From the NCBI GenBank assembly GCA_030694465.1, contig JAUXYJ010000023.1:372001-436000 (forward strand): 64,000 bases of DNA. The letters run 5' to 3'. A program made the position numbers and the translations under genes. The notes under the pieces were generated by a model. The model was not told the DNA's origin. It worked only from the letters and a program-made list of their open reading frames with translations, and ran no database searches. This DNA comes from Deltaproteobacteria bacterium (GTDB lineage Bacteria > Myxococcota_A > Polyangia > Polyangiales > Ga0077539). Of this stretch, positions 9,908-45,846 are shown piece by piece (within the stretch, counting starts at the first letter, position 1; each line of letters begins with the position of its first letter).

Positions 9908-9978
9908 ATTCCACCACTGCGACATGGATGCCCTACCTAGGGACTTCGATCGGGTGTACATGGCGCTCAAACCCCTCG

Positions 9979-11931: not shown

Positions 11932-11995
11932 TCGCCACCCTGCACACCGCCCGACTTTCGATTCGTCTTTCGCATCATCGCCTTTTTTCGGCACC

Positions 11996-17696: not shown

Positions 17697-19019
17697 CTAC
17701 GGCATGTTGTACGCGCACCGAAAGCCCACCGTCGGGAGCCGCGATCGCTCGTCGTAGCCAATGCGCTTGTAGCTCCACAGCACGTACACGTTGGGATCTC
17801 CCACGTTCGCGACCGCTGCAAAGTCTCCGCCGCGCGTCGCATAGAGTGGGCGCGTCTCGGTAGGCATCGTGCACACGGGGTCGGTCACCCCCGCGAGGGG
17901 CCAACAGCGGCCGCCGAGGGCGTCGAAGCGATCGCCCACCCACTCGGTCACGTTTCCCGTGAGGTCATAGAGCCCCTCGCTCGCTGCGAAGCGCGCAACC
18001 GGCGACGTCGCCGCATTGCTGGGTGTGCTCGTGCAGGGCTGCACGGTGCCCGCCATCGCCCGCGACGAGTGCTGCGCGCGGGTACACACGCCACCGGCCG
18101 AGGTGGGCTCGTCTTCGCCCCAGGGGTAGCGCCGCGGGACCACGGTCCCACCGATGGGGCGCAGCGCGACCGCGTAATAATGTTCGGACTCGGTCGGCAG
18201 GCGCCCTCCGTCCCACGCACAGAAAGCCATCGCGGTGTGCCAGTCGACACAGTTGATGGGGTGGCTCTCGCGAGCTCCGGCGGCGGCGGTCCAGTTGCAT
18301 CGCACGTCGCTGTCTGTGCTCACCGGGGGCAAGAACTCTCGTGACACGGTGACAGAGCCGCCGGGATACATCACCGTCGCACCCGCGTTGATCACCTCGC
18401 CGCGAGGGGCGCTCATGAAGCGCCGAAATCGCTCGACGGTGACCTCGGTCGCGTCGAGCGCGACCGTGCTAATTCCCACGCGAACCTCGGGTTCGGCGGG
18501 CTCGCGCCCAAACACAAACGGCATGCTCGGCGCGTCCACGCGGCCTACGCCACATTGGACGAGCCCCGCGACCGGACAGCTGCGGCTCGCGATGCATCGC
18601 CCGGTCCCCGTGGTCCACGTGCGACAAGGCAACGGCGCGCTCGCGTCACTCCCCGCATCGCTAGCGGCGTCTTGGCGAGCGTCCGATGCGTCTCGTACGG
18701 CGACGTCGCCGGAATCGCGTGCGTCAGACAAATGGCTGACATCTGGCAGAGCGTCGTCGAAGAACACGATCCCTGCGTCCCGTGAATCCACGGCGCTGTC
18801 CGCGAGCGCGTCAGGCTCGACCGTGTCTCCCTCCGCAGCGTCCGGCGCGAGCGCGTCTGCCTCGGCGTCGTCCGTAGAGAGCGGTCCGCCATCGCCGAGG
18901 GCGCTCCAAGACCAGCGAAAACACCCGCTCAATGCCTGCCCGCAGAGCACGAGTCCCAACGCCAACGTGGCTCTTGAGCAAAGCAAGTGGGGGCGCTTCG
19001 GGGCAGACTTCATGCGCAC
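17697..19019 (-). CDS. Lipoprotein with FGE-sulfatase (SUMF1-like) domain
   Basis: A signal peptide ends in L-S-G-C; the next 120 residues are a low-complexity Asp/Ala/Ser/Glu tether. The C-terminal 270 residues form a formylglycine-generating-enzyme-like fold: VALDATEVTVERF, NCVDWHTAMAFCAWDGGRLPTE, YPWGEDEP and GNVTEWVGD are all recognisable. The domain is also used for non-catalytic binding and protein modification, and the copper-binding cysteines of true aerobic FGE were not identified here. A role in activating sulfatases is therefore uncertain; none is encoded in the window. Two near-copies of the GGCGACGTCGCC core lie inside this gene. Confidence 0.82.
   Translation of the reverse strand: MRMKSAPKRPHLLCSRATLALGLVLCGQALSGCFRWSWSALGDGGPLSTDDAEADALAPDAAEGDTVEPDALADSAVDSRDAGIVFFDDALPDVSHLSDARDSGDVAVRDASDARQDAASDAGSDASAPLPCRTWTTGTGRCIASRSCPVAGLVQCGVGRVDAPSMPFVFGREPAEPEVRVGISTVALDATEVTVERFRRFMSAPRGEVINAGATVMYPGGSVTVSREFLPPVSTDSDVRCNWTAAAGARESHPINCVDWHTAMAFCAWDGGRLPTESEHYYAVALRPIGGTVVPRRYPWGEDEPTSAGGVCTRAQHSSRAMAGTVQPCTSTPSNAATSPVARFAASEGLYDLTGNVTEWVGDRFDALGGRCWPLAGVTDPVCTMPTETRPLYATRGGDFAAVANVGDPNVYVLWSYKRIGYDERSRLPTVGFRCAYNMP
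17999..18014. repeat. Palindrome core GGCGACGTCGCC inside a gene (15 of 16 match)
   Basis: The 12-bp core is perfect and one outer base differs from the 16-bp consensus. It lies in coding sequence of the FGE-like lipoprotein. Codon content could explain it, but a second copy occurs 700 bp away in the same gene. Confidence 0.6.
18698..18712. repeat. Palindrome core GGCGACGTCGCC inside a gene (15 of 16 match)
   Basis: The core is perfect with one outer base lost. It encodes part of the Asp/Ser-rich tether (SGDVAV) of the FGE-like lipoprotein. Confidence 0.6.
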
Positions 19020-19192
19020 AAACTAGCCACGCTCTGGCCCTTCACGGCAAGCCCGCACGCGCTGAAGCTTTGGTCCCTCGAGGTGAGCCAGCATGGCACA
19101 GCCAGGGTGAGCAACATCGGCGCAATGAGCTCACTCGAGTCAGTGTTTTCTCAGTGATTTTCTTTGGCACAGAGATTTCATTGAGACCACAG

Positions 19193-20887
19193 ATGCCCGT
19201 CGCTCGCATCACGCACCTCGCGATCATCGCGGCGCTCGCTGGCTGCCAAGGCTACCTGCGCGAGCCCCCTGGAGCGACGCCCACCTCACCTCTCACGCAC
19301 CTCGGTGACGCGAGCCTCAACGGCGACGCGACCCCTGACACACCGCCGCCTCGTAGACCACTCACACGCTGCGCGTCGCGGACAACCGAGCCGATGCCTC
19401 TGTTGCGACTAACCCGCGAGCAGTACGTCAACACCGTGCGTGATCTCTTTCGCGACCCAGGGCTGCTCGCGCCAACGTTTGCTCCCGACGACGCGATCAG
19501 CGGATTTCATGTGGGCGCGAGCACGTCCGCGCTTCATGTAGAGCAGCAGCTTAACGCGGCCGAGTCCATCGCCGAGCGCGCCGCCACTCGTCTGCAAATG
19601 TACGTCTCGTGTGCGCCCGCGACGGGCGACGAGGCGTGCGCGGCGCGCTTTGTGACCGACTTTGGCCTGCGCGCCTACCGACGACCTTTGACCGCCGAAG
19701 AGCGCGAAAATCTTCTGGTTGTCTACCGCGCGATCCGTGCAATGGGTGAGGATTTTTCCAGTGCGATGCGATCGGTGATCGAGGCCCTGCTCGCCTCTCC
19801 GCAGTTTCTTTATCACACCGAGCACACCGCCGATCGCGTGGTGGTGGTCGATGGCTTGCTCAAGCTCCGTGGGTTCGGGATCGCCTCACGGCTGAGCTAC
19901 CACTTGTTGAACACCATGCCCGACGACGCGATGCTTGCGCAGGCAGGTCGTGGAGAGCTCGAATCCGACACGCAGATCGATGCCGCCACGCGGACGATGC
20001 TCGATGACGTGCGCGCACGACGTGGCCTCGCGAGCTTCGCGACCCAGTGGCTCGACCTTGACCGAGTGGCGCAGCTTCAGCGCGACCCAGCGCTGATCAC
20101 GGGCTGGAGCACTGACAGCGGTGAGCGACTGCACCGCTCGATCCACGGCTTTATCGAGCGTGCATTTTTTGGCTCAAATCCCACGCTCGATTATCTTTAC
20201 ACCTCGGGAGACGTGCTGCTCGATGGGCCGCTCGCGCGCATCTACGGCGTACCCGGCGTGCGCGGTGACGCGCTGCAGTCCATCGCCCTTGAGCCAGGTC
20301 AACGCGGCGGCCTGATCACCCAGCCAGCGCTTCTTGCGATGCTCTCAAAGAGCGTGATCAGTGACCCGATCCATCGCGGGGTGTTTGTCCTGCGCAAGCT
20401 GCTCTGCCAAGACCTCCCACCGCCCCCTGCGGTCTCGCAAGAGCTCAGCGCGCCCCGCGAAGGCGTCTCGACTCGGATGCGACTCGAAGAGCTCGCCGCA
20501 CGCCCCGCATGCACAAGCTGCCACACGCTGATTAACCCGATCGGCGTGGGCCTTGAGAACTTCGACAGCGCCGGCCGTTGGCGCTCCCACGAGTCCGGCG
20601 TCGCGGTGGATCCAAGTGGAGAATTGCTGAGTATCGCGAGAGACATCCGCACGTTTGGCTCGCCCGTCGAGATGGCTCAGCGCATCGCAGCGAGCGAAGA
20701 AGCCACACGCTGTGTCCCACTGCAGCTCTTTCGCTACACGCTAGGACGCAACGAGACCGAGTCGGACGCGTGCCAAGTCAACGAGCTCACCGAAGACTAC
20801 CGAGCGCAGGGGCTGAGCCTCCGTGCGTTGCTTCGGTTGAGCACCACGACCACAGCGTTTCGCTACGTGCGCCCCGACGCGCCGTGA
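19193..20887 (+). CDS. DUF1592/DUF1588-type c-haem lipoprotein
   Basis: It has a lipoprotein signal ending in L-A-G-C and a Pro/Asp/Thr tether. The body follows the usual order of the DUF1587/1595/1592/1588/1585 family: LTREQYVNTVRDLF, AYRRPLTAEERENLL, LSYHLLNTMPDDAML, PALLAMLSKSVISDPIHRG, a C-T-S-C-H haem c motif followed by NPIGVGLENFD, and a closing RYTLGRNE block. Function is unknown; the haem motif implies a periplasmic redox role. Family members are commonly paired with a DUF1552 protein, which follows immediately here. The ATG at 19193 is chosen because upstream in-frame codons overlap the divergent lipoprotein gene and lack a signal peptide. Confidence 0.88.
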   Translation: MPVARITHLAIIAALAGCQGYLREPPGATPTSPLTHLGDASLNGDATPDTPPPRRPLTRCASRTTEPMPLLRLTREQYVNTVRDLFRDPGLLAPTFAPDDAISGFHVGASTSALHVEQQLNAAESIAERAATRLQMYVSCAPATGDEACAARFVTDFGLRAYRRPLTAEERENLLVVYRAIRAMGEDFSSAMRSVIEALLASPQFLYHTEHTADRVVVVDGLLKLRGFGIASRLSYHLLNTMPDDAMLAQAGRGELESDTQIDAATRTMLDDVRARRGLASFATQWLDLDRVAQLQRDPALITGWSTDSGERLHRSIHGFIERAFFGSNPTLDYLYTSGDVLLDGPLARIYGVPGVRGDALQSIALEPGQRGGLITQPALLAMLSKSVISDPIHRGVFVLRKLLCQDLPPPPAVSQELSAPREGVSTRMRLEELAARPACTSCHTLINPIGVGLENFDSAGRWRSHESGVAVDPSGELLSIARDIRTFGSPVEMAQRIAASEEATRCVPLQLFRYTLGRNETESDACQVNELTEDYRAQGLSLRALLRLSTTTTAFRYVRPDAP

Positions 20888-20950
20888 GCGAAGCGCGCTC
20901 GATTGATTCTTCGTTTGACGAGACAATTCACAGAGAAACGTGACTCCATC

Positions 20951-22378
20951 ATGACCCCACTGTTGCAGCGACGCATGGACCGACGATTGATGCTCGCGGG
21001 CTCGGGCTCTGTGTTTGCTTCATCGCTCTTGCGCTCGGTCACTGGCTTCGCGCAGAGCGCGCCGCCCAAGCGCCTAGTGATCTGGAGCACACCCTGCGGA
21101 GTGATCGAAGAAGACTTTCGGCCCACCGGAGGCGAGCGCAACTTTGTACTCCCGCGGATCTTGGCGCCCCTGGAGCGGGTCAATCCACGGCTACGCGAGA
21201 AGCTCTTGATGTTCGGACCTGGCCGCGCGCAGACCGCGCTCCACGGCGTGCGCACCGAGCGCGGAATCTCAGTCAAATGCAACGCAGATCGCCCCGTCCC
21301 CAGCACGATTGGGCACGGCTGCGAGACGCTGCTCACGGGCATCGCACCCACGATCGCGGGCGAAGCTCGCAGCGCAGCGGGCCCCTCGATTGATCAGTGG
21401 CTCGTGCAACGGCTCAACCCTTCGACGCGGTTTCGCTCGCTGCAGTTCTCAGTCGGCGTGAGCGCGGCAGGGCGCAACGCGCATGAGTGGGCGCTCACAT
21501 GGGGCGGAGCGGGCGCACCTTTGCCCGTCATGAACGACCCCCGCGAGGCCTTCACGCGCGTGTTCTCAAACCTCATGATTGACGACAGCGCGCGGCGACG
21601 GATCGCGCGACGACAGAGCGTCCTTGACGCAGTTCACCGCAACTTTACTGCGGTCCGAGGCACCCTCGGTGCAGAACAGCGGAGGCGTCTCGAGGCGCAC
21701 CTCACGGCACTTCGCGAGGTCGAGCAGCGTGTTCAGAACACCACGGGAGCCGGCGCGATGTGCCGCCCTCCGACGCTCCCGGCCAGCATCGGCCAGGTGA
21801 CCTGGGATCGCTTCGACGGCATCCCCCAGCAGGTCGGTCTGCAGGTCGATCTCATGGTCGCCGCGCTGCAGTGCGGGCTGACTCAAATCGCCTCGTTTCA
21901 GTACGGCACGGCGGCGGCGAACCTCGCGGCCCCTTGGCTCGGAATCGATGAGTTTATCCACACCGTTTCGCATGGCGAGGTGATCCAAGCAGGCCAGACC
22001 GACCGATACCGCAGCGTGGCAGACCCAGTGGCGGCACGAGAGAAATTCTCACGCTACAACGCGTGGCTCACCGAGCAGCTCGCGCGCTTTGTCGACGCCC
22101 TTGAGCGCACGCCCGAAGGCAGCGGGACCATGCTCGACAACACCCTTGTGCTTGTCGTCAACGAGCTGTCCGATGGCAATTTTCACACGCACCAGAACAT
22201 GCCTTGGTATCTCATCGGCAACGTGGGCGAGCATTTTTCGACGGGTCGTTACGTCACATTTGCTGACAAATCGCACAACGATTTGCTCGTAAGCGTCGCC
22301 CGCGCGTTTGGCCAAGACGTGATGTCCTTCGGCGCACCGAGTGCGTGCACGGGCCCGCTGCCCGGTCTCACCCGTTAG
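20951..22378 (+). CDS. DUF1552 secreted protein
   Basis: At 475 residues it has the usual family length. The N terminus (QRRMDRRLMLAGSGS then a hydrophobic run ending F-A-Q) looks like a Tat-type or Sec signal. The mature protein opens with APPKRLVIWSTPCGV, typical of DUF1552, and contains the HTVSHGE and LDNTLVLVVNELSDG stretches seen near the end of the family. Function is unknown; the family partners DUF1592 c-haem proteins in Planctomycetes and Myxococcota. The ATG at 20951 is preferred to an upstream TTG at 20903. It overlaps the convergent kinase gene by 4 bp at the stop codons. Confidence 0.88.
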   Translation: MTPLLQRRMDRRLMLAGSGSVFASSLLRSVTGFAQSAPPKRLVIWSTPCGVIEEDFRPTGGERNFVLPRILAPLERVNPRLREKLLMFGPGRAQTALHGVRTERGISVKCNADRPVPSTIGHGCETLLTGIAPTIAGEARSAAGPSIDQWLVQRLNPSTRFRSLQFSVGVSAAGRNAHEWALTWGGAGAPLPVMNDPREAFTRVFSNLMIDDSARRRIARRQSVLDAVHRNFTAVRGTLGAEQRRRLEAHLTALREVEQRVQNTTGAGAMCRPPTLPASIGQVTWDRFDGIPQQVGLQVDLMVAALQCGLTQIASFQYGTAAANLAAPWLGIDEFIHTVSHGEVIQAGQTDRYRSVADPVAAREKFSRYNAWLTEQLARFVDALERTPEGSGTMLDNTLVLVVNELSDGNFHTHQNMPWYLIGNVGEHFSTGRYVTFADKSHNDLLVSVARAFGQDVMSFGAPSACTGPLPGLTR

Positions 22379-24177
22379 GCCCCGTCGGGGATGTATTCGC
22401 CACCGGTGGCTGGCGCGCTCGCACGCGTGTGGGTCGCAGCCGCGCTCCGTCGTGGCGCTGCACGACGCGGCGCGCGACGCACCACGGCTCGCGTCGGCGC
22501 GACAGTCGCAGCAACAACTGCGGGCGGCGCAGAGGGCACAACGGGCTGCAAAATCACTGGCTCTGGCGCGCGCACGGGCTCAGGCACGATCTCGTGTACC
22601 GGTGCCCTCTCGGCCACCACGGGCAGCGAAGAGACCGCTGCAGCCGCGACAGGCGTAGCGCTCTGCTGCATGCGCAGCATGAGCAACCACGGCACCGCAA
22701 AGAGCAGCACTCCCAACGTCGCGAGCACCAAGTGCATGGGCCTCACGCGGGACCTGCGGGTTGTCTCGGTGATCTCGTTTGCGCGGGGCACCGGAGGCGG
22801 GCCGATCGCGGGGCCCATGTCGAGCTCTACCGGGGACTCTGAGTCATCGTGGACGGGCACAACCGTCTCGAAATCACTGATTTCGTCTGCATCATGGCCC
22901 ATGGACGGGAAGCTGTAGGCCCCTGCTTGGAGCGCGCTGCGGCGCTCTTCGATCTTGGGTCCGAGCCAGTGCGCGAGATACTTCGCGGTGTCTCTCACGG
23001 ACGCCACGCGTGGGACCGCGCGCTCGATCGCGTCGGCAAAACAGCGCGCGTCAACGAAACGCGAAGACACATTGCGGTCGAGGGCTTGCTGTACGGCGTC
23101 GTCAATGGACGCGGGCAGCGCGGGTCGCAAGCTGGTCAGGTTTGCGATGCTCCCTCGGAGCACCCGCGCGGTGGTCTCGTAGTCATTTGTACCAGCAAAA
23201 AGCCTGCGTCCTGCGAGAAGCTCCCAGAGCACAACCCCTGCCGCAAACACGTCCACCGAGCGCGTCAGGTGCTCATCACGAAACTGCTCGGGCGCCATGT
23301 AGGCGAACTTGCCGCGCACGTGCCCCGCGCGCGTATGCGAGGCACCGAGCGCCGCTTTTGCGATCCCAAAATCGGCCAAGCGCGTGACGCCATCGACACC
23401 GATCAAGATGTTCTGCGGCGAGACATCTCGATGGACGATGTGCAGCGGGCGCCCTTCGTGATCACACGCTTCGTGGGCAGCGTGAAGCCCTGCCAGCATG
23501 TCCAACACGATCCGCGCGGCGATCGCCAGGGGAACATGCTGTCTCGCGCGCCGGGTCACACGCACGAGCTCGGCCAAGCTCGCGCCCTCGATGTAATCCA
23601 TCACCAAGAACGGCACGTCTTCGAAGCCCACATCGAGGGTCGCCACCACGTTGGGATGACCGATGTTTGCTGCCAAACGAGCCTCTTCGAAGAACATGTT
23701 TGAGAACTCGGCGTCGTCGGCCAAGTGCGGGTGACACACTTTGACCGCGACGCAGCGCGAGAACCCGTTCATGCCATGGGTGCGCGCGACGTAGACCGTC
23801 GCCATGCCGCCCGCCGAGACCTTGGTCAAGAGCTCATAGCGCCCGAGCATGCGTGTGGACGGAGCTCTGCGCGAGGTGATCCCCGAGATGCCGCTGGGCC
23901 GGTGCTCAGTGCGCGCGGTGGGCGGATCGTCGAGCAGGTCCTCAATCACGTGATCGACCACCGTCGCGTTGAACGCAGGCAGCTTGGCCGCCACCGGGAT
24001 CGGTGGCATCAGCGGCAGCGAAGCTAAGCGCGCGCGCGGTGCGGTCACGCCCTTCATGAGCGTGGTGCCATGGTCACTAAACTCACGGCTCGGGTCACGG
24101 CGTGCTTGCCAAAGACTCAACGAGCGCTCAGCGGTCGGAATCTCATCCTGATCGTCTACAGCGAGTGCGTCTGCCAT
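22375..24177 (-). CDS. Membrane-anchored Ser/Thr protein kinase
   Basis: This is a Hanks-type kinase of 600 residues. The kinase domain (about residues 110-380) has the Gly-rich loop (SAGGMATVYVAR), the VAVK lysine, a catalytic loop HRDVSPQNIL, DFGIAKA and an APE-like MAPEQF motif, so it should be active. A hydrophobic segment around residue 490 separates it from a Pro/Ala/Arg-rich C-terminal tail that would be extracytoplasmic. No recognised sensor domain is visible. An upstream GTG at 24195 is possible; the ATG gives MADALAVDDQ. It sits alone on the - strand between DUF1552 and mmsA. Confidence 0.92.
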   Translation of the reverse strand: MADALAVDDQDEIPTAERSLSLWQARRDPSREFSDHGTTLMKGVTAPRARLASLPLMPPIPVAAKLPAFNATVVDHVIEDLLDDPPTARTEHRPSGISGITSRRAPSTRMLGRYELLTKVSAGGMATVYVARTHGMNGFSRCVAVKVCHPHLADDAEFSNMFFEEARLAANIGHPNVVATLDVGFEDVPFLVMDYIEGASLAELVRVTRRARQHVPLAIAARIVLDMLAGLHAAHEACDHEGRPLHIVHRDVSPQNILIGVDGVTRLADFGIAKAALGASHTRAGHVRGKFAYMAPEQFRDEHLTRSVDVFAAGVVLWELLAGRRLFAGTNDYETTARVLRGSIANLTSLRPALPASIDDAVQQALDRNVSSRFVDARCFADAIERAVPRVASVRDTAKYLAHWLGPKIEERRSALQAGAYSFPSMGHDADEISDFETVVPVHDDSESPVELDMGPAIGPPPVPRANEITETTRRSRVRPMHLVLATLGVLLFAVPWLLMLRMQQSATPVAAAAVSSLPVVAERAPVHEIVPEPVRAPEPVILQPVVPSAPPAVVAATVAPTRAVVRRAPRRAAPRRSAAATHTRASAPATGGEYIPDGA

Positions 24178-24265
24178 GAGCCTAACCAAAAGCACAGCAT
24201 GTGCCAGGGCATGACACAGACGAACTCATGGAGTTGTCTCTGCAAATTCGCAGCGATTTACTCAG

Positions 24266-33602: not shown

Positions 33603-35534
33603 ATGAACGCACCGCCCACTGGCAGTGAACCAACGATTCCATGCCCTGTTTGCGCGACAGCGATGCTCGCCGACAGCCGATTCTGTGGAAGCTGCGGCTA
33701 CGCGATTGTACCTAGCGTTCCCGCACCTAGCGTTAGTTCGCCTGTTATTTCGCAGCCTATTGTCTCTTCGGTTCCGCCCCCTGCTGCCCCCGTGACCCCC
33801 TCGATTGCGCCCGCGACGGTGCGATCCAACGCGCGCACGATGATGGGCGTGATGCTCCCTCCTGGCGCGCTTGAAGCGCTGCAACAACCCGCAGCGACCC
33901 CGCCACCCGCAGCGCAGCCTGCTCCCACAGCCTCGACAGGTCCGGCCTCGGTCAAGAACGCCAACCGAACGATGCTCGGCGTGAGCCTCGACGCGCAGGC
34001 CATTCAGGCGCTGGCAGAGAAGAGCGCGAAGAAGACCGACGACGCGATGCACAACGTGGATGCGCCGACGAAGCACCCGATCGCGGTGCCCAACGCGAGC
34101 CACACCATGATCGGCGTGCAGCTCACGCCCCCGCCCGGCGCGGTCCCCATGGACCTGATGAGTGCCGCACCCAAGTCAGCACCCGCGGCAGTCTCTGCGA
34201 CAGGTCCGGCGCACGCTCAGGGCTGGGGAGCGCCGATCGCGCCAGCGACGTCTGCGCCTGTTTCGTCTGCAAATATTCAGCATTCATCGAGCCCAGCGCC
34301 CATGGGCAGCGACTCGTTTTCGGACTTCGCGATCCCAGGCCTAAACACTTCAAAATCGCGGGGCTCAGGCCAAGCAAAGCGCATCGCAGCGGTGGTCCTC
34401 GCGGCGGTTGTTGTGGGCGGCGGCGTCCTGTTGGCGTTGAGCCTCCGCAAGGGCGCGCTGGCCCCCTTGGTGGCCACCGCGGAGAGCGCAAACGGCGAGC
34501 GAACCTTGGTCATCCAGGTGCCCAACGCGCCGGCCCAGAGCCGCCTGAGATACACGGGCGGCGAGGTCGCGATCGAGGCAAACAGCGCGCGGTTGCCCGG
34601 CAGTGTCCTCAACGATCGCGTCGGGCGCGTTGAGCTCCCGGTTCAGATGGTTTCGGGGGGAACCGTCACGGCACGGACAGCGGTCATCGTGGTCGCCTAC
34701 TTGGTGCAAGCCGACCTTGAGGGGCTCGCACAAGATCCGCCGGTCGCGAGACTTCGCATTCGGGTTCAGCCTGGCGCGACGGTGACTTTGGACGGACAGC
34801 CCGTCCAGGTAGACGCGCAGGGTCAGGGCATCGCGGCGGTCGCCGACGTGCGCGCGCTGCGAGCGAGCGAACCAGAGCTCCATCACAATTTCGCGATCCA
34901 CGTGCAAAATCCCGACCGATCGTCCGCGGACGGGACCTACGGATTTGCGCTGACACGCGCGCCCTTGCAGATCGATCGGCCCACCGGAGAGCGATGGCAA
35001 ACGAGCGCACCGCAGCTGCTCGTTCGTGTCCGCGCAGCCGGGGCGAGCGCAGTGCAGATCCAAGGCGCCGAGGCGACACGAGAGGGCGAAGTGTTTTCGC
35101 GACTGGTACCCCTCGCAGAGGGCCCCGCCAGCGCGCTCACCGTGCGCGCGATGCGGCCCGGCTTTGCCCCTGCGCTCGGTGAAATTCAGGTCGAGCGCTT
35201 GGCAGACACAGCCGCAGGCGTAAGAGCGTTTGCCCCCGTCGGCGACGCCCCCTGTGGCGAAGGTCTGCTCGGAAAAAAGCTCAGCGTAAGCGGCCGCGTC
35301 CTCGCCGAGCCCCGCGAGCACAACGGCGGAGTGTCTTTTCAGCTCGCGGTCTCGGATCGTCGCTGCCCTGATCGCATTGCGCCGCTCTGGGTGGACGCAG
35401 AGCCCGGCACCGCGACCCAGGCAGGACGAACACTACGCGTCACCGGGGTGATCACCTCGACGCGGACCTCTGTGAGCGCAAGCGGCGACCGACGCACGGA
35501 TCCAGTACTGCACGCGGCGTTTGTGGGCCGATGA
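33603..35534 (+). CDS. Zinc-ribbon membrane protein with three T-M-x-G-V repeats
   Basis: This is a 643-residue protein. An N-terminal zinc ribbon has C-x2-C at 14/17 and C-x2-C at 28/31 (FCGSCG). Three short repeats with Asn-x-x-x-Thr-Met-hydrophobic-Gly-Val lie near residues 76-85, 119-128 and 164-173 inside a Pro/Ala/Ser-rich linker. One membrane segment (260-281) puts the N-terminal part in the cytosol. The rest is extracytoplasmic and beta-rich, ending with a distinct domain. The next gene, a Ser/Thr kinase with the same kind of zinc ribbon, overlaps the stop by 4 bp. Thr residues in the repeats are plausible phosphorylation sites; this is inference. Confidence 0.8.
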   Translation: MNAPPTGSEPTIPCPVCATAMLADSRFCGSCGYAIVPSVPAPSVSSPVISQPIVSSVPPPAAPVTPSIAPATVRSNARTMMGVMLPPGALEALQQPAATPPPAAQPAPTASTGPASVKNANRTMLGVSLDAQAIQALAEKSAKKTDDAMHNVDAPTKHPIAVPNASHTMIGVQLTPPPGAVPMDLMSAAPKSAPAAVSATGPAHAQGWGAPIAPATSAPVSSANIQHSSSPAPMGSDSFSDFAIPGLNTSKSRGSGQAKRIAAVVLAAVVVGGGVLLALSLRKGALAPLVATAESANGERTLVIQVPNAPAQSRLRYTGGEVAIEANSARLPGSVLNDRVGRVELPVQMVSGGTVTARTAVIVVAYLVQADLEGLAQDPPVARLRIRVQPGATVTLDGQPVQVDAQGQGIAAVADVRALRASEPELHHNFAIHVQNPDRSSADGTYGFALTRAPLQIDRPTGERWQTSAPQLLVRVRAAGASAVQIQGAEATREGEVFSRLVPLAEGPASALTVRAMRPGFAPALGEIQVERLADTAAGVRAFAPVGDAPCGEGLLGKKLSVSGRVLAEPREHNGGVSFQLAVSDRRCPDRIAPLWVDAEPGTATQAGRTLRVTGVITSTRTSVSASGDRRTDPVLHAAFVGR

Positions 35535-37564
35535 GCAGCGGCACGCACGACGAGCCCGTGCCTCTCGAAGATCGTCGCGAAATCGGCGAGATGCCCACCG
35601 TGCATGGGCGAGACATTGGGCCCTCCGTCCGGTGCGTGGTGTGCGACGCCGACGTCGTGTTTGGCATCAATTTTTGCGGAGTCTGCGGCCACAACGTCCG
35701 CGCACAGACGTCGACAGATCCGATGATTGGCATGATCGTCGCGGACCGCTACAAGATCGCAGCGCTCTTGGGTCGCGGGGGCATGGGCGTGGTGTATCGC
35801 TGCGTCCATACGCGCATGGGAAAGACCATGGCGATCAAGCTCTTGCACGGCGACCTCGCCCGCGATGGCGGCGTGCTCGAGAGGTTTCAGCGCGAGGCAC
35901 AAGCTGCGTCTAAGCTCTCGAGCCCTCACACGGTCAGCGTTTTTGACTACGGATCGAGCGAGGGTCTCACGTACCTCGTGATGGAGTTTGTTGCGGGCGA
36001 AGACCTCAGCCGAGTGCTTCGTGCGAAGGGACATCTGTCACCCGAGCGCGTCGCTCGGATCAGTGTGCAAGCCTGTCAATCGCTCACCGAGGCGCACGAA
36101 AACGGGATCATTCATCGGGACGTAAAGCCCGAGAACTTTATTGTCACACGCGATCGCAACGGCGCCGAGCTGATCAAGCTGTTGGACTTCGGACTCGCCC
36201 GTCTGCGAGACGGCGAGGAGCGCAATGACATCACAGGGTCAGGCGCGCTTCTTGGGACGCCGTACTACATGTCCCCAGAGATCATCCGTGGAGGACAAGC
36301 CGACGTGCGTTCGGACATCTATGCGCTCGGCGCGATGATGTACCGCGCGCTGGTTGGCACGCCGCCGTTTATGGGCAGCTCGCCCATCGCGGTCTTAACC
36401 CGGACGCTCATCGACGACCTCGAGCCGCCCTCGGCGCGTCGCCCCGATCTCACAATCCCGCGACCCCTCGAAGAGCTGGTCCTGCGTTGCCTAGCGAAAG
36501 ACGCCGCGCAGCGCCCGCAGACGATCGAGGCCGTACGCCAGTGTTTGCTGGAATTTCTCGGACAGAGTGATCCGTCTTCGCTGAGCGATTCGGGGCTCTT
36601 GAAGCCCCTCGGCACGGTCGCTGACGAAGACCTCGAAGTAGCGACCCGCAGCGACGTCGAGCTCTTTGAAAAGCGGCTGCGGCGCGGTCGCATCGCGGGC
36701 TGGTCGGCCGCCCTCGCTTTCGCGCTGTTGGTCTTGGTGGCTGGGGTCGTGATCGTCAGCGCCCAGCGGGCCAAACGCTCAGAGAACAACCAACCGCTCA
36801 CCACCGAACGCGAGCCAAACAATAGCCCCACGCGAGCCAATCTCATCGCACCCGAGACCGAGGTCCGCGGGCGATTGGCCAATCGAATCACTCGAACGCA
36901 AGGCGATGTCGACATGTTTCGCTTGGCGCCAAGGCCCCGCGGTCGATGGCGACTGCGCGCAGAGCTCTCGCCACAACCCAACATCGACACGAAGTTAGAG
37001 CTGTTTGTGAGCGGCAATGAGGGCCCTGTTTTTTCGGCTGGCGAGGCCGGGATCGGCGAGCGCGAGCTCATCGCGGGGTTCACACTCCAAGACGGAGGTG
37101 AGTATTTTCTCGTCGTACACGAAGACCTACGGAGCGGCTTGATTCCGTCCGAAAATGTGTCCGACGACTACCGGCTTCGGTATCGACTTGAGGCCATCGA
37201 TGAGCGCCTCGAAACTGAGCCAAACGACAGCGAAATGACAGCGCAAGTGCTCCCTACCGAAGGCGACGTGCAGGGCTTCATCGAGTCAGTCCAGGACACC
37301 GATGTGTGGTGCCCCACGTCACTTACCGCGGCGACCTCCGTCCGACTTGAGCACCCCAGCATGGACCTTGAGCTTCGTGTGGTTTTTCGCGATGGCCACG
37401 CGACCGAGACCCTCGACAGCCACCGCGCGGGAGGTGTCGAGCGTGTGCTCGTGCAGCCAGCCTTGTCGCGCCCGCCGTGCTTCGCGGTCCATGCGTCTAC
37501 ACAGTTTGCGCCAAGCAAGGGCGACGGCGAACACCCCTACACGTTGCGCCTGGTGAGACCATGA
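35531..37564 (+). CDS. Ser/Thr kinase with N-terminal zinc ribbon and extracytoplasmic PPC-like domains
   Basis: This is a 677-residue kinase. The zinc ribbon C35/C38/C49/C52 (CVVC...FCGVCG) precedes a full Hanks domain: GRGGMGVVY, MAIK (K103), HRDVKPEN and DFG at 219-221. A membrane segment at about 388-411 is followed by two extracytoplasmic repeats that open with TEREPNNSPTRAN and LETEPNDSEMTAQ. These are typical of bacterial pre-peptidase C-terminal (PPC) beta domains, normally found on secreted proteases; on a kinase they could sense envelope ligands. Start ATG overlaps the previous stop (ATGA), and the next gene's start overlaps this stop, indicating one coupled operon. Confidence 0.92.
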   Translation: MSSGTHDEPVPLEDRREIGEMPTVHGRDIGPSVRCVVCDADVVFGINFCGVCGHNVRAQTSTDPMIGMIVADRYKIAALLGRGGMGVVYRCVHTRMGKTMAIKLLHGDLARDGGVLERFQREAQAASKLSSPHTVSVFDYGSSEGLTYLVMEFVAGEDLSRVLRAKGHLSPERVARISVQACQSLTEAHENGIIHRDVKPENFIVTRDRNGAELIKLLDFGLARLRDGEERNDITGSGALLGTPYYMSPEIIRGGQADVRSDIYALGAMMYRALVGTPPFMGSSPIAVLTRTLIDDLEPPSARRPDLTIPRPLEELVLRCLAKDAAQRPQTIEAVRQCLLEFLGQSDPSSLSDSGLLKPLGTVADEDLEVATRSDVELFEKRLRRGRIAGWSAALAFALLVLVAGVVIVSAQRAKRSENNQPLTTEREPNNSPTRANLIAPETEVRGRLANRITRTQGDVDMFRLAPRPRGRWRLRAELSPQPNIDTKLELFVSGNEGPVFSAGEAGIGERELIAGFTLQDGGEYFLVVHEDLRSGLIPSENVSDDYRLRYRLEAIDERLETEPNDSEMTAQVLPTEGDVQGFIESVQDTDVWCPTSLTAATSVRLEHPSMDLELRVVFRDGHATETLDSHRAGGVERVLVQPALSRPPCFAVHASTQFAPSKGDGEHPYTLRLVRP

Positions 37565-38889
37565 AGCGGCTGCGACAGAGCGCTCCATGGGCAGTGATTT
37601 TGCTCACCGTTGCAGGTGCGACACACGCCCAGCAGCTCAGAGTCCGTGGCGACCGTTTGACCACGCGCGCTCATCTGCCCGAGCGAAATCCAGGGCTCTC
37701 TCACGCGTTGTCGCAGAGCATTCAAGACTCGCCCATCGGGAGAGCTACGCTCAACGTGATCCAACTCCCGCGCGGAACCCCTGCTTTTTTACCCGTCATT
37801 CTCGATGACAACCGACTGATCCTTACGACTCACGCGCCCCCGGCCATCTGGTGGACTCAGGGCGATCGCGTCACGCATGGCGCCATTGGCCGCGCGCGCC
37901 TCGTGGGTCCGCCGGCCATCGGCGCCGACCTGCGTGTGCTCACCGTCGACGACAACAGTCACCTCACGGTCTACACACCCGAGGGCGAAGCGCGTCAGAC
38001 CCTGATGCTGCCCTCACGACCGCTCGGCGGAGTGACGACCCTTGGCGACGGGACCGTGCTCGTACCGACCGAAATCGACTCAACGCGTGGGCTTTTTGCC
38101 CTCACGCCAGACCTCCAGAGCGGCACCCCCCTCACGCTACCCTTTGCGCTCAACGATGCCATGTTGCTGCGCGGCTATGGCGGCTCTGTGTGGGCGTCGA
38201 CTACGCGCGGACCCCTGCAAATTCGCAGCGATAGAGGCATCCATCCGCTGCCCGCCAACGCTCCCCGCGGGCGGCTCTTGCAGCTCGAAGAAGACACCTT
38301 GGTGGTGCTCTCTGCAGCGCAACCCACGTTCGAAATCACGACGCTCTCGCGCCATGGTGCCGTCCGCGGCTCTCAGACCGCACAGGGCACCGCGTTCTCG
38401 CTCCCGATGGGGCACCTCGCCGTGGCGCACGGCGTGATCCCAACGCCCGCGGCTCCCGTGGCCGGATCGACACCCGCGCCACCGCCGCCGCCGCCGCCTG
38501 CTCCGGTCGTGAGATCCCGTTGGCGCTTGGGCGCCCTGGCTCGTGGAGAGCCTGAGCCTACGCACACCGAGCTCACCGTCTACGACCGCACCGGACGCCG
38601 TCAACGCCAGGTGCTGCTGCCTCGCCAAGAGTCCAACGAAGAGCTCCGCTGGATCCTGATGGACCCCGAGCAGTCGCTGCTCGTGATGACCTCGCGCGGG
38701 CGTCTCTTCGCGATCGATCCAAGCGGCGCGATGCGCTGGGAGGTCAACCTCTCCATCACGCCAGTCTTTGACGCCGTGACCCTCGCCGATGGGGGATTCG
38801 CCTTCATGATCCAGGCCCCACGACCCGCCCTGGTGATCTATCACCCGGCCGCGCAGGCCCCGCCGCACGTCCCTACTCCCGTAAGCTGA
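37561..38889 (+). CDS. Secreted repeat (beta-propeller-like) protein of the kinase operon
   Basis: This 442-residue protein has a signal peptide ending A-T-H-A and no lipobox. The body has repeated aromatic/Gly-rich beta segments (DRLTTRAHLPERNP, VLTVDDNSHLTVYTPEGE, LAIDPSGAMRWEV-like) resembling PQQ or SMP-type beta-propeller blades. A Pro-rich linker (eight consecutive Pro near residue 310) interrupts the last third. No catalytic motif is seen. The start ATG overlaps the kinase stop (ATGA), so it is probably translated with the kinase. It may be the extracytoplasmic partner or ligand-binding component; function is unknown. Confidence 0.78.
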   Translation: MKRLRQSAPWAVILLTVAGATHAQQLRVRGDRLTTRAHLPERNPGLSHALSQSIQDSPIGRATLNVIQLPRGTPAFLPVILDDNRLILTTHAPPAIWWTQGDRVTHGAIGRARLVGPPAIGADLRVLTVDDNSHLTVYTPEGEARQTLMLPSRPLGGVTTLGDGTVLVPTEIDSTRGLFALTPDLQSGTPLTLPFALNDAMLLRGYGGSVWASTTRGPLQIRSDRGIHPLPANAPRGRLLQLEEDTLVVLSAAQPTFEITTLSRHGAVRGSQTAQGTAFSLPMGHLAVAHGVIPTPAAPVAGSTPAPPPPPPPAPVVRSRWRLGALARGEPEPTHTELTVYDRTGRRQRQVLLPRQESNEELRWILMDPEQSLLVMTSRGRLFAIDPSGAMRWEVNLSITPVFDAVTLADGGFAFMIQAPRPALVIYHPAAQAPPHVPTPVS

Positions 38890-38959: not shown

Positions 38960-40114
38960 ATGTTGAGACAGGAAATCATTTTCATAATCATCCTATCGCT
39001 CTCGGGCTGCGCTCCGCCCCTCATGCTCGTCGGAGCCGACCCAACGAACCTGCCTGTCACGATGTTGAACGCCGAGCAGTCGCAGCAATTTGACCGCGGT
39101 GATGCGCTCTTTGAGCACGCGTTTGCGCCCAGCGAAGGGCTCGGCCCTGTCTACATCCGTCCCTCGTGCGCGTCGTGCCACGCGCGCGACGGGCGCGGTC
39201 CCGGAGTGGTCCAGCGCCTCGCTGTCCTCGAAGCCGACGGTCGCACGCCGCGTGAGGACATGCGCATGTTCTTGCCCTTCGGCGACGTCGTGCGGCCCTT
39301 GTTTGTCGCACCCGCGACCATGGGCCTGATGGCGCCGACCAACGTGTCCAACTTGGTGACCTCGATCCGTGTGGGGCCGGCGGTGTTTGGTCGCGGCTGG
39401 ATCGAGGCCATCGACGAGCGCGAGATCCTCCGCGTGGCAGCCGAGCAAGCCGCGGGGCCAGGCCCCGAGCGCGGGGTCGTCGCGCGCTTGAGCGATGGGC
39501 GTGTTGGACGCTTTGGGCTCAAAGCGCGGGTCGCAACGCTCAGAGAATTTGCAGCCGATGCGCTCCGGGGAGACATGGGCCTGACGTCACCGATTTTTTC
39601 GACTGAGGTGGCCAATCGCGAGGGGCTCACAGACGACCAGCGACCCGGCGTAGATGTCTCGCTCGCGCAGGTCGAAGACCTCGGGCTCTACACCGCCGCG
39701 ATCGCGATCCCTGCGCGGCAGGCGGGCCCCGGCGAGGGCGCAGCGCTCTTTGCCCGCGCGCGTTGCGCGATCTGCCACGTTCCGTCGCTCGCGACACGAG
39801 ACGACTATCCGTTGGGCGCGATCGCGGGACGCCCCGCAGAAGTGTTTACCGATGTGCTCTTGCACGACATGGGCGACGCCCTCGCAGATGGCGTGCGTGA
39901 GGCCGGCGCAAACCATCGCCAATGGCGAACCGCGCCCTTGATCGGAGTCCGTCATCTTCGCTCGTTCTTGCATGACGGCCGCGCGACCTCGCTCGCGCAA
40001 GCCGTCGCGATGCACCGCGGAGAGCGCTCTGAAGCCAACGCGTCGATAGACACATTCGATGCACTCGCGCCTGCAGACCAGCGCGCGCTCCTCAGCTACG
40101 TCGCCACACGTTGA
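38960..40114 (+). CDS. DUF1111-type di-haem oxidoreductase lipoprotein
   Basis: This 384-residue lipoprotein has a signal ending L-S-G-C. It has two haem c sites, C70-x2-C73-H74 (CASCHARDGRG) and C269-x2-C272-H273 (CAICHVPS), as expected for DUF1111, a family related to di-haem peroxidases often labelled thiol oxidoreductase. It acts in the periplasm. DUF1111 genes commonly neighbour imelysin genes in Pseudomonas and others, and the gene here is followed by an imelysin 23 bp downstream. The pair is generally linked to iron uptake. The start is an ATG 70 bp past the kinase operon. Confidence 0.88.
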   Translation: MLRQEIIFIIILSLSGCAPPLMLVGADPTNLPVTMLNAEQSQQFDRGDALFEHAFAPSEGLGPVYIRPSCASCHARDGRGPGVVQRLAVLEADGRTPREDMRMFLPFGDVVRPLFVAPATMGLMAPTNVSNLVTSIRVGPAVFGRGWIEAIDEREILRVAAEQAAGPGPERGVVARLSDGRVGRFGLKARVATLREFAADALRGDMGLTSPIFSTEVANREGLTDDQRPGVDVSLAQVEDLGLYTAAIAIPARQAGPGEGAALFARARCAICHVPSLATRDDYPLGAIAGRPAEVFTDVLLHDMGDALADGVREAGANHRQWRTAPLIGVRHLRSFLHDGRATSLAQAVAMHRGERSEANASIDTFDALAPADQRALLSYVATR

Positions 40115-40137
40115 GCCCTACAGAAAGACAAGTATTC

Positions 40138-41148
40138 ATGTCGCGAATCTCAAAGATCACTCTCTCGATTGCGTCCGTGTTTTTGCTTCAGTGTGCGACC
40201 CCGCAAGAGCGCGCGACCCTCGAGGTCAAAGACCACATCCGCGCAGACCTCGCGGCGCTCACCAGCGCAGCGAGAGAGATGCAAAGCGTGACGCCCGCCC
40301 AAGGGCCATGGAGTCCAAGTACGCACTCCTCCGACGTCGCACGCATGCGCGCAGCCTGGCTGCGAGCGCGCGCTGCCTATGAGCGCGTCGAGGGAGCAGT
40401 CGCGGTGCTCTTTCCCGAGCTCGATGTCAGCACCGACGCACGCTTCGATCACTTTGTCAGCGAGCGCCCAGACACCAACCTCTTTGATGGCGAAGGCGTC
40501 ACCGGAATGCACGCGATCGAGCGGATCTTGTGGGCCGATCAGATCCCCGAGCGCGTGCGCGCATTTGAAGCGACACTGCCCAACAGCCCACAGGCTGCGC
40601 GAGCTCCCATGACGGCGACCGAGGCCCAGCAATTTCGCAGCGATTTGCTCGGTCGATTGATCCGAGACAGCGAAGAGATGGAGCGCCAGTTTCGTCCCCT
40701 CGCCCTCGACAACGCGACGGCTTTTCGCGGCGTCATTGGCTCGCTTGAAGAGCAGCTTGAGAAGGTCAACGTGGCGGCGACGGGCGAAGAAGAGTCACGC
40801 TATGCGCAGACGACGCTCGCGGACATGCGGTCGAACCTCGAAGGCTCGCAGCGCACATTCAGAGCCTTCAGGCCCTGGCTCGAGTCCGTCCAACAGCAAG
40901 CGCTCGCGACACGCATCGACGCGCGATTCGCGGCACTCTCAGCGCAGTACACAGCGCTCCAAGGCGACGCGCTCCCGCCCGTTCCTGAGGGATACAACCC
41001 CACGACGCCGTCCGCCGCACACCTCGCGACGCCGTATGGCCAGCTGCGGTCGTTCTTGCAGCGCGAGTCAGACCCCATGCAGAGCGAATCGCTCGTTGCC
41101 TTGATGAGCACCGCCGCAGACGCCCTCAACATCCCTCAATTGCGATGA
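40138..41148 (+). CDS. Imelysin/EfeO-family lipoprotein (M75)
   Basis: This 336-residue lipoprotein has a signal ending L-L-Q-C. The G-x-H-x-x-E motif of the imelysin family is present (GMHAIERILWAD), and the surrounding helices are consistent with the two four-helix bundles of that family. Imelysin-family proteins are periplasmic or outer-membrane and take part in iron acquisition; the motif resembles a metal site. It sits between the DUF1111 protein and a P460-like cytochrome, whose ATG overlaps the imelysin stop by 4 bp, so coupling is likely. The ATG at 40138 is chosen over an upstream TTG at 40111 because it starts the signal peptide. Confidence 0.88.
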   Translation: MSRISKITLSIASVFLLQCATPQERATLEVKDHIRADLAALTSAAREMQSVTPAQGPWSPSTHSSDVARMRAAWLRARAAYERVEGAVAVLFPELDVSTDARFDHFVSERPDTNLFDGEGVTGMHAIERILWADQIPERVRAFEATLPNSPQAARAPMTATEAQQFRSDLLGRLIRDSEEMERQFRPLALDNATAFRGVIGSLEEQLEKVNVAATGEEESRYAQTTLADMRSNLEGSQRTFRAFRPWLESVQQQALATRIDARFAALSAQYTALQGDALPPVPEGYNPTTPSAAHLATPYGQLRSFLQRESDPMQSESLVALMSTAADALNIPQLR

Positions 41149-41732
41149 ACACACCCCGCGACCCGCGCGCTCCACAGCGTGCATTGATCTCAACCTTGCT
41201 GCTCTCCTTGGTGAGCTCAGCGCCGCTGTCTTGTGGCGAGACTCAGACGCAATATCTCGCGCTGGACAGGGATTTTCAGGGATTTTTGCAGTGGCCTCAG
41301 CGCGCGTTGGGCAGCACAACCATCGCCGGTCACCCCGCCGGTCCGCGGGTCTTGTATCGCCGCCCCAACGATCAGCTCCCTCCCTGGGCGGGTCCCTCGC
41401 CCGACGCCGGCGACGACGCCGGACCGCCGCAATTCGCGCGCGGAACGATCTTAGTAAAGACCGTCGAGGTAGGCCCGGTCACAGACTGGGAGATCTTCGC
41501 CATGGTCAAACGCGGCGGCGACTACAACCACAACGGCGCGGTCGGCTGGGAGTTTTTTTCGCTCAAGGTCTTGCCCTCTGGCGCGGTCATCGTGGTGGGC
41601 CGTGGGTTGATCCCGTCGGCCGATCGATACACCGACCCTGGCACTGGCCAAGCGCTGACCTGCAACCAATGCCATGGCACTACGGCAGCCCGCGCACGGG
41701 ACAGCGTCTTGTCCGAGGGACTTACACCGTAA
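41145..41732 (+). CDS. Cytochrome P460-like haem lipoprotein
   Basis: This 195-residue lipoprotein has a signal ending L-S-C. The domain contains GTILVKTVEVGPVTDWEIFAMVKRGG-like and GAVGWEFFSL stretches and a single C-N-Q-C-H haem site near the C terminus, the pattern of the cytochrome P460 domain family. It should be periplasmic and may act in nitrogen-oxide, peroxide or electron-transfer chemistry; no P460 crosslink residue could be assigned. The ATG overlaps the imelysin stop (ATGA), so it is the third gene of the operon. An ACTTACACCGTAAGT motif covers the stop codon. Confidence 0.8.
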   Translation: MNTPRDPRAPQRALISTLLLSLVSSAPLSCGETQTQYLALDRDFQGFLQWPQRALGSTTIAGHPAGPRVLYRRPNDQLPPWAGPSPDAGDDAGPPQFARGTILVKTVEVGPVTDWEIFAMVKRGGDYNHNGAVGWEFFSLKVLPSGAVIVVGRGLIPSADRYTDPGTGQALTCNQCHGTTAARARDSVLSEGLTP

Positions 41733-43544: not shown

Positions 43545-44687
43545 TCAGTCCTCGTCCGCGGGACCGACCTCGTCGTTTTCGTTCATGCGGTCAAGGACCG
43601 AGTCGGCCCACGAGCGCGCGTTTCCGTCGCGAATCGCCTGTCGCAAGCGGGCCATCAGGCGTCCGAAGAAGTACAAATTGTGCTGCGTCACGACGCGCCC
43701 AAAGAGCATCTCGCCTGCCATAAACAAGTGCCGTAGATAGCCTCGCGAATAGCCCGAGGTGCAGCACGGCCCGTCGCACTCTGGGTCAATAGGCCCCTTG
43801 TCGTCGCGGTTGCGGAGCTGCTTCATGTTGGCGCGGCCGTTCCACGTGAGCGCTTGGCCGTTGCGTGCGTTGCGGGTCGGCAGCACGCAATCAAACATGT
43901 CGATCCCGGCGAGCGAGCCCGCGATGAGGTCCCGCGGCGTACCCACGCCCATCAGATATCTCGGCACATTTTCAGGCATTTTGTGAGCCACGGCGTCGAG
44001 CACGCGGTGCATCTCTTGCCAAGGCTCGCCTACGCTCAGCCCACCCAGCGCGAAGCCATCGAAGGGCATCTCGCGGAGGGTCTCTAGGTGCTGCAACCGC
44101 AGGTCCGTATGCACTCCTCCCTGCACGATCCCGAAGAGTGCCTGGTTTGGATCACGCGGGGCCGCGAGACATCGCGCTGCCCACGCCGTCGTACGTGCCA
44201 TCGCGCGCTCAACCTCGGGACGCGCGGCGTCACCGGGCGGACACTCGTCAAACGCCATCGCGATGTCCGCCCCAAGCAGTGACTGAATGCGCATGGACTC
44301 TTCAGGCGTGAGCCGCAACATCGTGCCATCCAAGTGCGAGCGAAAGGTCACACCCTCGTCATCGATGGTGCGCAGTTTTGCCAGCGAAAAGACCTGAAAT
44401 CCGCCCGAGTCCGTCAGCATGATCCCAGGCCAGCGCGTAAACTTATGGAGCCCTCCCAGGTTGCGCACCACCTCAGGGCCCGGTCTCAACCAGAGGTGAT
44501 ACGTGTTGGCCAACACGACCCCTGCGCCCGTGACCGCCACCTCCTCCATCGAGAGACCTTTGACTGTCCCCACGGTCCCGACGGGCATAAACGTTGGCGT
44601 CTCGACCGAGCCGTTGGGTGTCGTGAGCGTGGCTACGCGAGCGTGAGCGTCGCGAGCGTGCACTTCAAATGAATATCCACTGCGCAT
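43545..44687 (-). CDS. tgt: Queuine/preQ1 tRNA-ribosyltransferase
   Basis: This 380-residue enzyme exchanges guanine for preQ1 at position 34 of GUN-anticodon tRNAs. The base-exchange nucleophile and hydrophobic platform (LTDSGGFQVFSLAKL) and FDCVLPTRNARNGQ are standard. The zinc site differs from the usual C-x-C-x2-C: the sequence here reads C-D-G-P-C-C before YSRGYLRHL, with the later His kept (TQHNLYFFG). The ATG at 44687 matches the family N terminus. It follows queA on the - strand with a 61-bp gap, an arrangement seen in many bacteria. Confidence 0.95.
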   Translation of the reverse strand: MRSGYSFEVHARDAHARVATLTTPNGSVETPTFMPVGTVGTVKGLSMEEVAVTGAGVVLANTYHLWLRPGPEVVRNLGGLHKFTRWPGIMLTDSGGFQVFSLAKLRTIDDEGVTFRSHLDGTMLRLTPEESMRIQSLLGADIAMAFDECPPGDAARPEVERAMARTTAWAARCLAAPRDPNQALFGIVQGGVHTDLRLQHLETLREMPFDGFALGGLSVGEPWQEMHRVLDAVAHKMPENVPRYLMGVGTPRDLIAGSLAGIDMFDCVLPTRNARNGQALTWNGRANMKQLRNRDDKGPIDPECDGPCCTSGYSRGYLRHLFMAGEMLFGRVVTQHNLYFFGRLMARLRQAIRDGNARSWADSVLDRMNENDEVGPADED

Positions 44688-44748
44688 ATAGATTCTGCCG
44701 CAGAAAAGACCACCGAAATGGTCTCGACGGCAAGCACAGACGCGCGCG

Positions 44749-45768
44749 TCAACGCACAAGCATCGCGTCGCCGTACGAGAAGAATTTGTACCGAGCCTCC
44801 ACCGCCAGGGCATACGCACGCCGTGTGCGCTCTTCACCCGCGAGCGCCATCACGAGCGCGAGCAAGGTCGAGCGCGGCAGGTGAAAATTCGTGAGCAACA
44901 TGTCGATCACGCGCAGCGAATATCCAGGCTGAATCAGCAGTCTTGTCTCGCCCGATCGCGCGCCCTGGTCCAGCGCCCAAGACTCGAGCGTGCGCACGAC
45001 CGTGGTGCCCACGGCAAACACAGGGCGCCCCTCGCGCTTGGCCTGCAAGAGCTTCTCGGCGACGGCGTCCGCGATGAGGTAGTGCTCGCTGTGCATCGGG
45101 TGCGTGTCCAGGTCCTCGACCGAGACAGGCAAGAACGTCCCGGCGCCCACGTGCAGCGTCACGGCGACGCGCTCAATGTCGCGCGCGGCAAAGTCTTCGA
45201 GCATGCGAGTGGACAGGTGGAGGCCCGCAGTAGGCGCAGCGACAGCGCCCGGATTCGCAGCGAAAACACACTGATATCGCTCTTTGTCTTCTTCGTTTGG
45301 CGCGCGCTCCATGTAGGGAGGCAGCGGCACCTCACCGTGACGTTCGATCGCTGCCCAGGGGTCGTCACACACGAGCTCAACCTCAAGGACTCCCTCGGGG
45401 CTCTTGTCGACGACGTGGATTGTGAAGCCCTCGCCCACCAAGACCTCGAGCCCCGCAGAGATCTTCTTCGAGCTCTTGCCAAACGCGCTCCACCGTTTTG
45501 CGTGCGCGTCCAACGCCTTGAGCAAAAAGATCTCGACCGCTCCGCCGGTGTGCTTGCGACCACGGATGCGGGCCGGGATCACCCTTGTGTCATTGACCAC
45601 CATCAGAGATCCCTGCGGAATCACTGACGGAAGCGATCGGATCATCCGGTGCTCGAGCGAATCACCCGCGCGATCGACCACGAGTAACCGCGCGCCATCG
45701 CGCTCTTGGGGCGGCTCGCTCGCGATCAATTCTCGCGGGAGCTCATAGTCCAACTCACTGACCTTCAT
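44749..45768 (-). CDS. queA: tRNA preQ1(34) S-adenosylmethionine ribosyltransferase-isomerase
   Basis: This 339-residue enzyme makes epoxyqueuosine from preQ1-tRNA and S-adenosylmethionine. The N terminus MKVSELDYELPRELIA, VVNDTRVIPARI and GRPVFAVGTTVVRTLES are near-universal in QueA. It lies directly upstream of tgt. A GGGGGAG directly before the chosen ATG would be unusually close as a ribosome-binding site; a GTG 14 codons upstream is the alternative but adds residues not seen in the family. Genes for preQ1 synthesis are not in the window. Confidence 0.95.
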   Translation of the reverse strand: MKVSELDYELPRELIASEPPQERDGARLLVVDRAGDSLEHRMIRSLPSVIPQGSLMVVNDTRVIPARIRGRKHTGGAVEIFLLKALDAHAKRWSAFGKSSKKISAGLEVLVGEGFTIHVVDKSPEGVLEVELVCDDPWAAIERHGEVPLPPYMERAPNEEDKERYQCVFAANPGAVAAPTAGLHLSTRMLEDFAARDIERVAVTLHVGAGTFLPVSVEDLDTHPMHSEHYLIADAVAEKLLQAKREGRPVFAVGTTVVRTLESWALDQGARSGETRLLIQPGYSLRVIDMLLTNFHLPRSTLLALVMALAGEERTRRAYALAVEARYKFFSYGDAMLVR

Positions 45769-45846
45769 CTCCCCCGAAGCCTCTACACCAAGGACCCACG
45801 CGACGACCACTCAAGCCACACGCATTGCGCACATTCGCGCGCCGCG

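Follow-up and report, generated by a model that had tools for sequence, protein, structure and literature searches.

Do three overlapping genes, the first two of which encode membrane proteins with the same zinc ribbon at their N termini, make up a dedicated signalling unit of the cell envelope, and is the kinase in their middle paired exclusively with the membrane protein encoded beside it? The genes lie in a stretch of 64,000 nucleotides from a myxococcotal contig (the window, to which all positions refer). A preliminary description had proposed for them an outer sensor, an inner kinase, a membrane substrate and a secreted partner. Below, P1 and P3 stand for the products of the first and third genes.

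Layout of the operon and its three products

Both junctions consist of the sequence ATGA, so that the genes are joined by 4-bp overlaps (35531-35534 for P1/kinase, 37561-37564 for kinase/P3), as had been described. For the second overlap, the start of P3 was taken at the ATG at 37561; a longer ORF of 470 aa begins at an upstream GTG. The features of the operon are as follows:

33603..35534, + strand: P1 gene, 643 aa (ORF)
33642..33698, + strand: P1 zinc ribbon CPVC-x10-FCGSCG, residues 14-32 (sequence; weak Zn_Ribbon_1/DZR matches)
33837..33851, + strand: P1 motif 1, ARTMMGV (TMMGV, residues 79-83; sequence)
33969..33983, + strand: P1 motif 2, NRTMLGV (TMLGV, residues 123-127; sequence)
34104..34118, + strand: P1 motif 3, SHTMIGV (TMIGV, residues 168-172; sequence)
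34383..34439, + strand: single predicted transmembrane helix of P1, residues 261-279 (hydropathy; helix in model)
34464..35531, + strand: predicted P1 ectodomain, three Ig-like beta-sandwiches and a C-terminal, tentatively OB-like domain (AlphaFold2, Foldseek)
35531..37564, + strand: Ser/Thr kinase gene, 677 aa (Pkinase E=6e-50)
35633..35689, + strand: kinase zinc ribbon CVVC-x10-FCGVCG, residues 35-53 (sequence; weak DZR match)
35750..36538, + strand: kinase domain, residues 74-336, with HRDVKPEN and DFG...SPE (Pkinase E=6e-50)
36707..36763, + strand: predicted transmembrane helix of the kinase, residues 393-411 (hydropathy)
36800..37561, + strand: predicted tandem PPC-like ectodomain of the kinase, the second domain having an invariant pair of cysteines (profile, model, fold)
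37561..38889, + strand: P3 gene (ATG start at 37561), 442 aa

P1, for which family profile searches found no curated family above the cut-off, is predicted from its sequence to be a bitopic protein, in which a cytosolic zinc ribbon is followed by a low-complexity linker with an array of T-M-x-G-V motifs, a transmembrane helix, three Ig-like domains and an OB-like domain. The three repeats of this kind that the preliminary description had counted were indeed present, starting at residues 79, 123 and 168, and the FCGxCG ribbon was found at the N termini of both P1 and the kinase. Both proteins have the zinc-ribbon pattern CxxC-x(n)-CxxC in their sequence, with Pfam scores below the cut-off. In P1, conservation of the cysteines C14, C17, C28 and C31 across 44 homologs is 90% or higher, and the ribbon pattern lies within the first 80 residues in 49 of 53 homologs. 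The ribbon is also seen in most orthologous kinases, and its supposed rarity held up among the 30 kinases nearest in sequence, 3 of which, including the operon kinase itself, have a CxxC-CxxC pair. The AlphaFold2 model of the P1 ectodomain has a mean pLDDT of 83. In Foldseek its Ig part matched tandems of Ig domains; the whole-chain TM-scores were low, which is common for multi-domain chains that differ in the relative orientation of their domains. The C-terminal all-beta domain, with weak matches to DUF4131 and L24, we tentatively consider OB-like.

The kinase is predicted to be a second bitopic protein with a zinc ribbon of its own, followed by a Hanks kinase domain, a transmembrane helix and two PPC-like domains, and both membrane proteins have folded ectodomains in their models. 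The HRD, DFG and APE-type motifs (DFGLARL...SPE) identify it as a Hanks-type Ser/Thr kinase, and its genome contains 134 kinase-domain matches. It scored 308 bits against PknB_PASTA_kin (cut-off 450) in a match confined to residues 66-348, and was therefore not assigned to the PASTA kinases. Its ectodomain gave no Pfam PPC match at E<=1. The PPC-like outer domains noted previously were nevertheless backed by a profile match to ColG s3a-s3b (E=2e-5), and by a fold match of the model to 5iku (E=2.7e-11), with single-domain TM-scores of about 0.7 to 1nqd/4hpk. The modelled ectodomain is thus a tandem of the PPC/collagen-binding fold.

The third product had been called a secreted repeat protein, which was right; more precisely, P3 consists of a signal peptide and a PQQ-like beta-propeller (442 aa in total). 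Its signal peptide ends in ATHA-QQ and by inspection lacks a lipobox. P3 matched designed propellers (hmmsearch, E=1e-15) and 3hxj (8e-5), and its profile aligned to PQQ homologs (hhalign, E=3e-6, probability 88%). While direct searches with P3 gave matches only in the nearest genera, a more distant protein at the same gene position in a relative matched PQQ_2 above the cut-off, and the profile of this PQQ_2-matching group aligns to that of P3. In other families the third gene encodes a propeller as well.

Elsewhere in the window, closely spaced genes downstream of the unit (38960-41732) encode a di-haem oxidoreductase (DHOR), an imelysin/EfeO-like M75 protein and a small protein, and possibly form an iron-uptake cluster. 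Two Kup-type K+ transporters (K_trans) are encoded in tandem at 9928-13942, and at 18932-24195 a PSD/PSCyt and HXXSHH (DUF1552) pair adjoins a further Ser/Thr kinase (22378-24195, - strand).

Conservation of the unit and its gene order

P1 was found in 63 of 145 genomes of the order, nearly always as a single match, and the profile of its ectodomain matched in 47 of 284 genomes of the phylum, other classes among them. Named relatives belong to Sandaracinaceae, Polyangiaceae and other Myxococcota. A single-protein scan of the sequence collection returned no relatives, which were found when a narrower alignment was used as the query.

Among the 72 loci with enough downstream sequence, 36 have a zinc-ribbon Ser/Thr kinase directly 3' of P1; two more cases were missed by the test, due to a frameshift (L050) and a short P1 (L088). 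L050 (contig C437 of G019) had the appearance of a P1-kinase fusion with a frame of 1187 aa, which we rejected: there is a frameshift in its OB region, and the usual overlap with the start of the kinase can be made out. The P1-adjacent kinases, together with that of L088, form one clade with support 99/80, in a tree whose bootstrap was not fully settled and whose contrasting paralogs come mostly from this genome. In other classes of the phylum, too, the kinase that follows P1 has a zinc ribbon, and outside the order the P1-kinase pair occurs in 11 of 13 loci examined. A propeller was found as the third gene in 17 loci. In at least 17 of the 26 loci without an adjacent kinase, the propeller gene directly follows that of P1, mostly by a 4-bp overlap; P1 and the propeller can therefore stand without the kinase. 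In several others, queA comes directly after P1.

Homologues that never co-occur would have refuted the preliminary description; this was not the case, the gene order being the same across many families. We conclude that the unit is old, probably vertically inherited and conserved across much of Myxococcota. In the window, the unit has tgt and queA nearby (43545-45810, - strand), and in several relatives they are directly beside P1, marking an old shared neighbourhood. Neighbours of 350 and 378 aa that were considered as pilus ATPases turned out to be QueA and Tgt.

A threonine motif in P1 and in other signalling proteins

The pattern T[ML][LIVMF]G[VMILA] occurs 136 times in the cytosolic part of 50 P1 proteins (13.7 thousand residues), where 0.28 copies are expected from shuffled linkers, and not once in the 18.7 thousand residues of their ectodomains. 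Considering that the Thr and Gly are set by the search pattern itself, the information comes from relaxed controls: when the Thr was exchanged for Ser, Ala, Val or Asp/Glu, or the Gly for Ala, zero copies were found in P1. Arg or Lys directly precedes the Thr in 97 of the 136 copies. The strict motif is absent from two of the 50 homologs, one of which has TVLGM forms instead; outside the order, TVLGM and TLFGM forms are common. The 636 other proteins encoded at P1 loci contained one copy, versus about 1.1 expected, not counting two further matches that belong to a P1 homolog missed by the gene match.

The motif is kept in all 26 P1 loci without an adjacent kinase, versus 20 of 21 with one. This persistence disfavours P1 as a substrate of the adjacent kinase only, and the link between the operon kinase and the motif is therefore indirect. 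Judging by these sequence patterns, a shared docking or phosphothreonine motif would be the better reading. We know of no FHA-binding consensus that it fits; its pT+3 position is Gly. It also resembles, as T-x-L-G-x-P, the activation loops of kinases (GTLLGTPAYM etc.), but since Thr occupies that place in no more than about a third of the listed loops, substrate mimicry stays a lead.

Across 90 genomes, the DNA pattern of the motif was clearly commoner than a reversed control, with matches that include P1 as well as out-of-frame chance ones; many raw matches lay outside called reading frames and were left out of the counts. In the genome that contains the operon, the DNA pattern identified a PilZ-linker-TM protein (L089 943-2799, contig C23), with the copies KSTMIGMPA and KGTLVGMAP. 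In an ortholog search run with a query shorter than full length, the motif was present in 11 of 11 orthologs (the protein itself and 10 in its family), and in 0 of 17 PilZ paralogs. In at least two other genomes, it was also found in the linkers of kinases (L094, with a PEGA ectodomain, L262 and L242), of a TPR protein (L250), of DUF4388/receiver-like proteins (L100, L109, L110) and of double receivers (L106, L118). These kinase, TPR, DUF4388 and receiver cases were picked by pattern, conservation being established for the P1 and PilZ families only. In most cases the motif is located in linkers between signalling domains and transmembrane helices. L106, L109 and L118 (double-receiver and DUF4388 proteins) have at least three TMxG motifs each, and are candidates for a common network.

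Readings of the unit and its relation to known systems

With moderate confidence, we propose that the unit is an envelope-to-cytoplasm signalling module of Myxococcota. Because kinases as well as PilZ, receiver and TPR proteins have the motif too, P1 would be a client, among others, of a wider network built on it, rather than the sole substrate of one kinase. In the periplasm, the propeller would come together with the ectodomains of P1 and the kinase to form the sensing part, and the zinc ribbons would be cytosolic docking modules. The motif threonines may be sites bound by a common reader, most likely under Ser/Thr phosphorylation control, for which the neighbouring kinase would be a likely enzyme, though not the only one. 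More tentatively, [RK]-T-[ML]-h-G-[VMI] may be a hitherto undescribed short linear motif of Myxococcota. Probably under phosphorylation control, it would connect membrane scaffolds, kinases, PilZ (c-di-GMP) proteins and receivers in one network, with P1, kinase and propeller as an old hub.

The dedicated envelope signalling unit of the preliminary description is supported by co-inheritance, a single kinase clade, two bitopic proteins and a signal peptide; its exclusive kinase-substrate pair is disfavoured. Such a pair, in which the three P1 threonines are phosphorylation targets of the operon kinase and the zinc ribbons bring both proteins together, is possible though unlikely: the overlapping genes, the orthology of the adjacent kinases and a Thr that is never replaced and preferably follows a basic residue all fit it, but it is weakened by retention of the motif wherever the adjacent kinase is missing, and by the presence of the motif in unrelated proteins. 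We also consider it rather improbable that the motif acts as a docking peptide regardless of phosphorylation (e.g. for the zinc ribbons, or for a polar or cytoskeletal landmark), with the kinase acting elsewhere. The conserved hydrophobic core (M/L, L/I/V/M, G, V/M/I) does resemble a binding peptide, and both its place in linkers and its independence of the adjacent kinase are in line with docking; the lack of Ser, Ala, Val or an acid at the Thr position, however, favours a phosphothreonine role without proving it. Finally, the three genes could be neighbours without a functional link, the kinase being one of many and the propeller serving another pathway, such as outer-membrane assembly. Half of the P1 loci indeed lack an adjacent kinase, and in some P1 stands alone beside queA, but we judge this very unlikely, considering that gene order and orthologous kinases are common to several classes, that the reading frames overlap, and that the propeller occupies the coupled position where the kinase is missing.

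Our literature search found nothing relevant on the motif or the architecture, nor on the combination and its wide conservation. The domains are each known, and the motif is the most novel part of the unit. Like the PknB/Hanks-type transmembrane kinases with PASTA, PQQ-propeller or PEGA ectodomains, the operon kinase combines a cytosolic Hanks domain, one transmembrane helix and a folded ectodomain, but it has a PPC-like tandem instead of PASTA domains, as well as an N-terminal zinc ribbon. Here, moreover, the propeller is secreted as a protein of its own, and a zinc-ribbon partner, P1, is encoded adjacently; kinase-linked PQQ propellers with solved structures (7eq5, 7dxn) were among the weak matches of P3. 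The PPC and clostridial collagenase collagen-binding domains share the tandem fold and an EPND-type motif with the operon kinase, whose domains sit outside a membrane kinase rather than on a protease. P3 resembles BamB and other PQQ-like propellers in its signal peptide and propeller repeats, and has a homolog that matches PQQ_2, but no lipobox was seen in it, and it is encoded with a kinase and P1. As a lead, GltJ/AgmX of Myxococcus gliding has the same layout as P1 (zinc ribbon, linker, transmembrane helix, periplasmic part); the ectodomain of P1 differs in being Ig-like and OB-like, and a Pfam search found no GYF domain in P1.

A short threonine motif common to a scaffold and other signalling proteins suggests a regulatory code not described before. 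Hanks kinases are very numerous in myxobacteria, but partners are known for few of them. In this unit, an orthologous, widely conserved kinase is linked genetically to a partner, and the motif is concrete enough to be tested. Should it be a common site of binding or phosphorylation, it would allow the partners of PilZ, receiver and kinase proteins to be predicted from their sequences.
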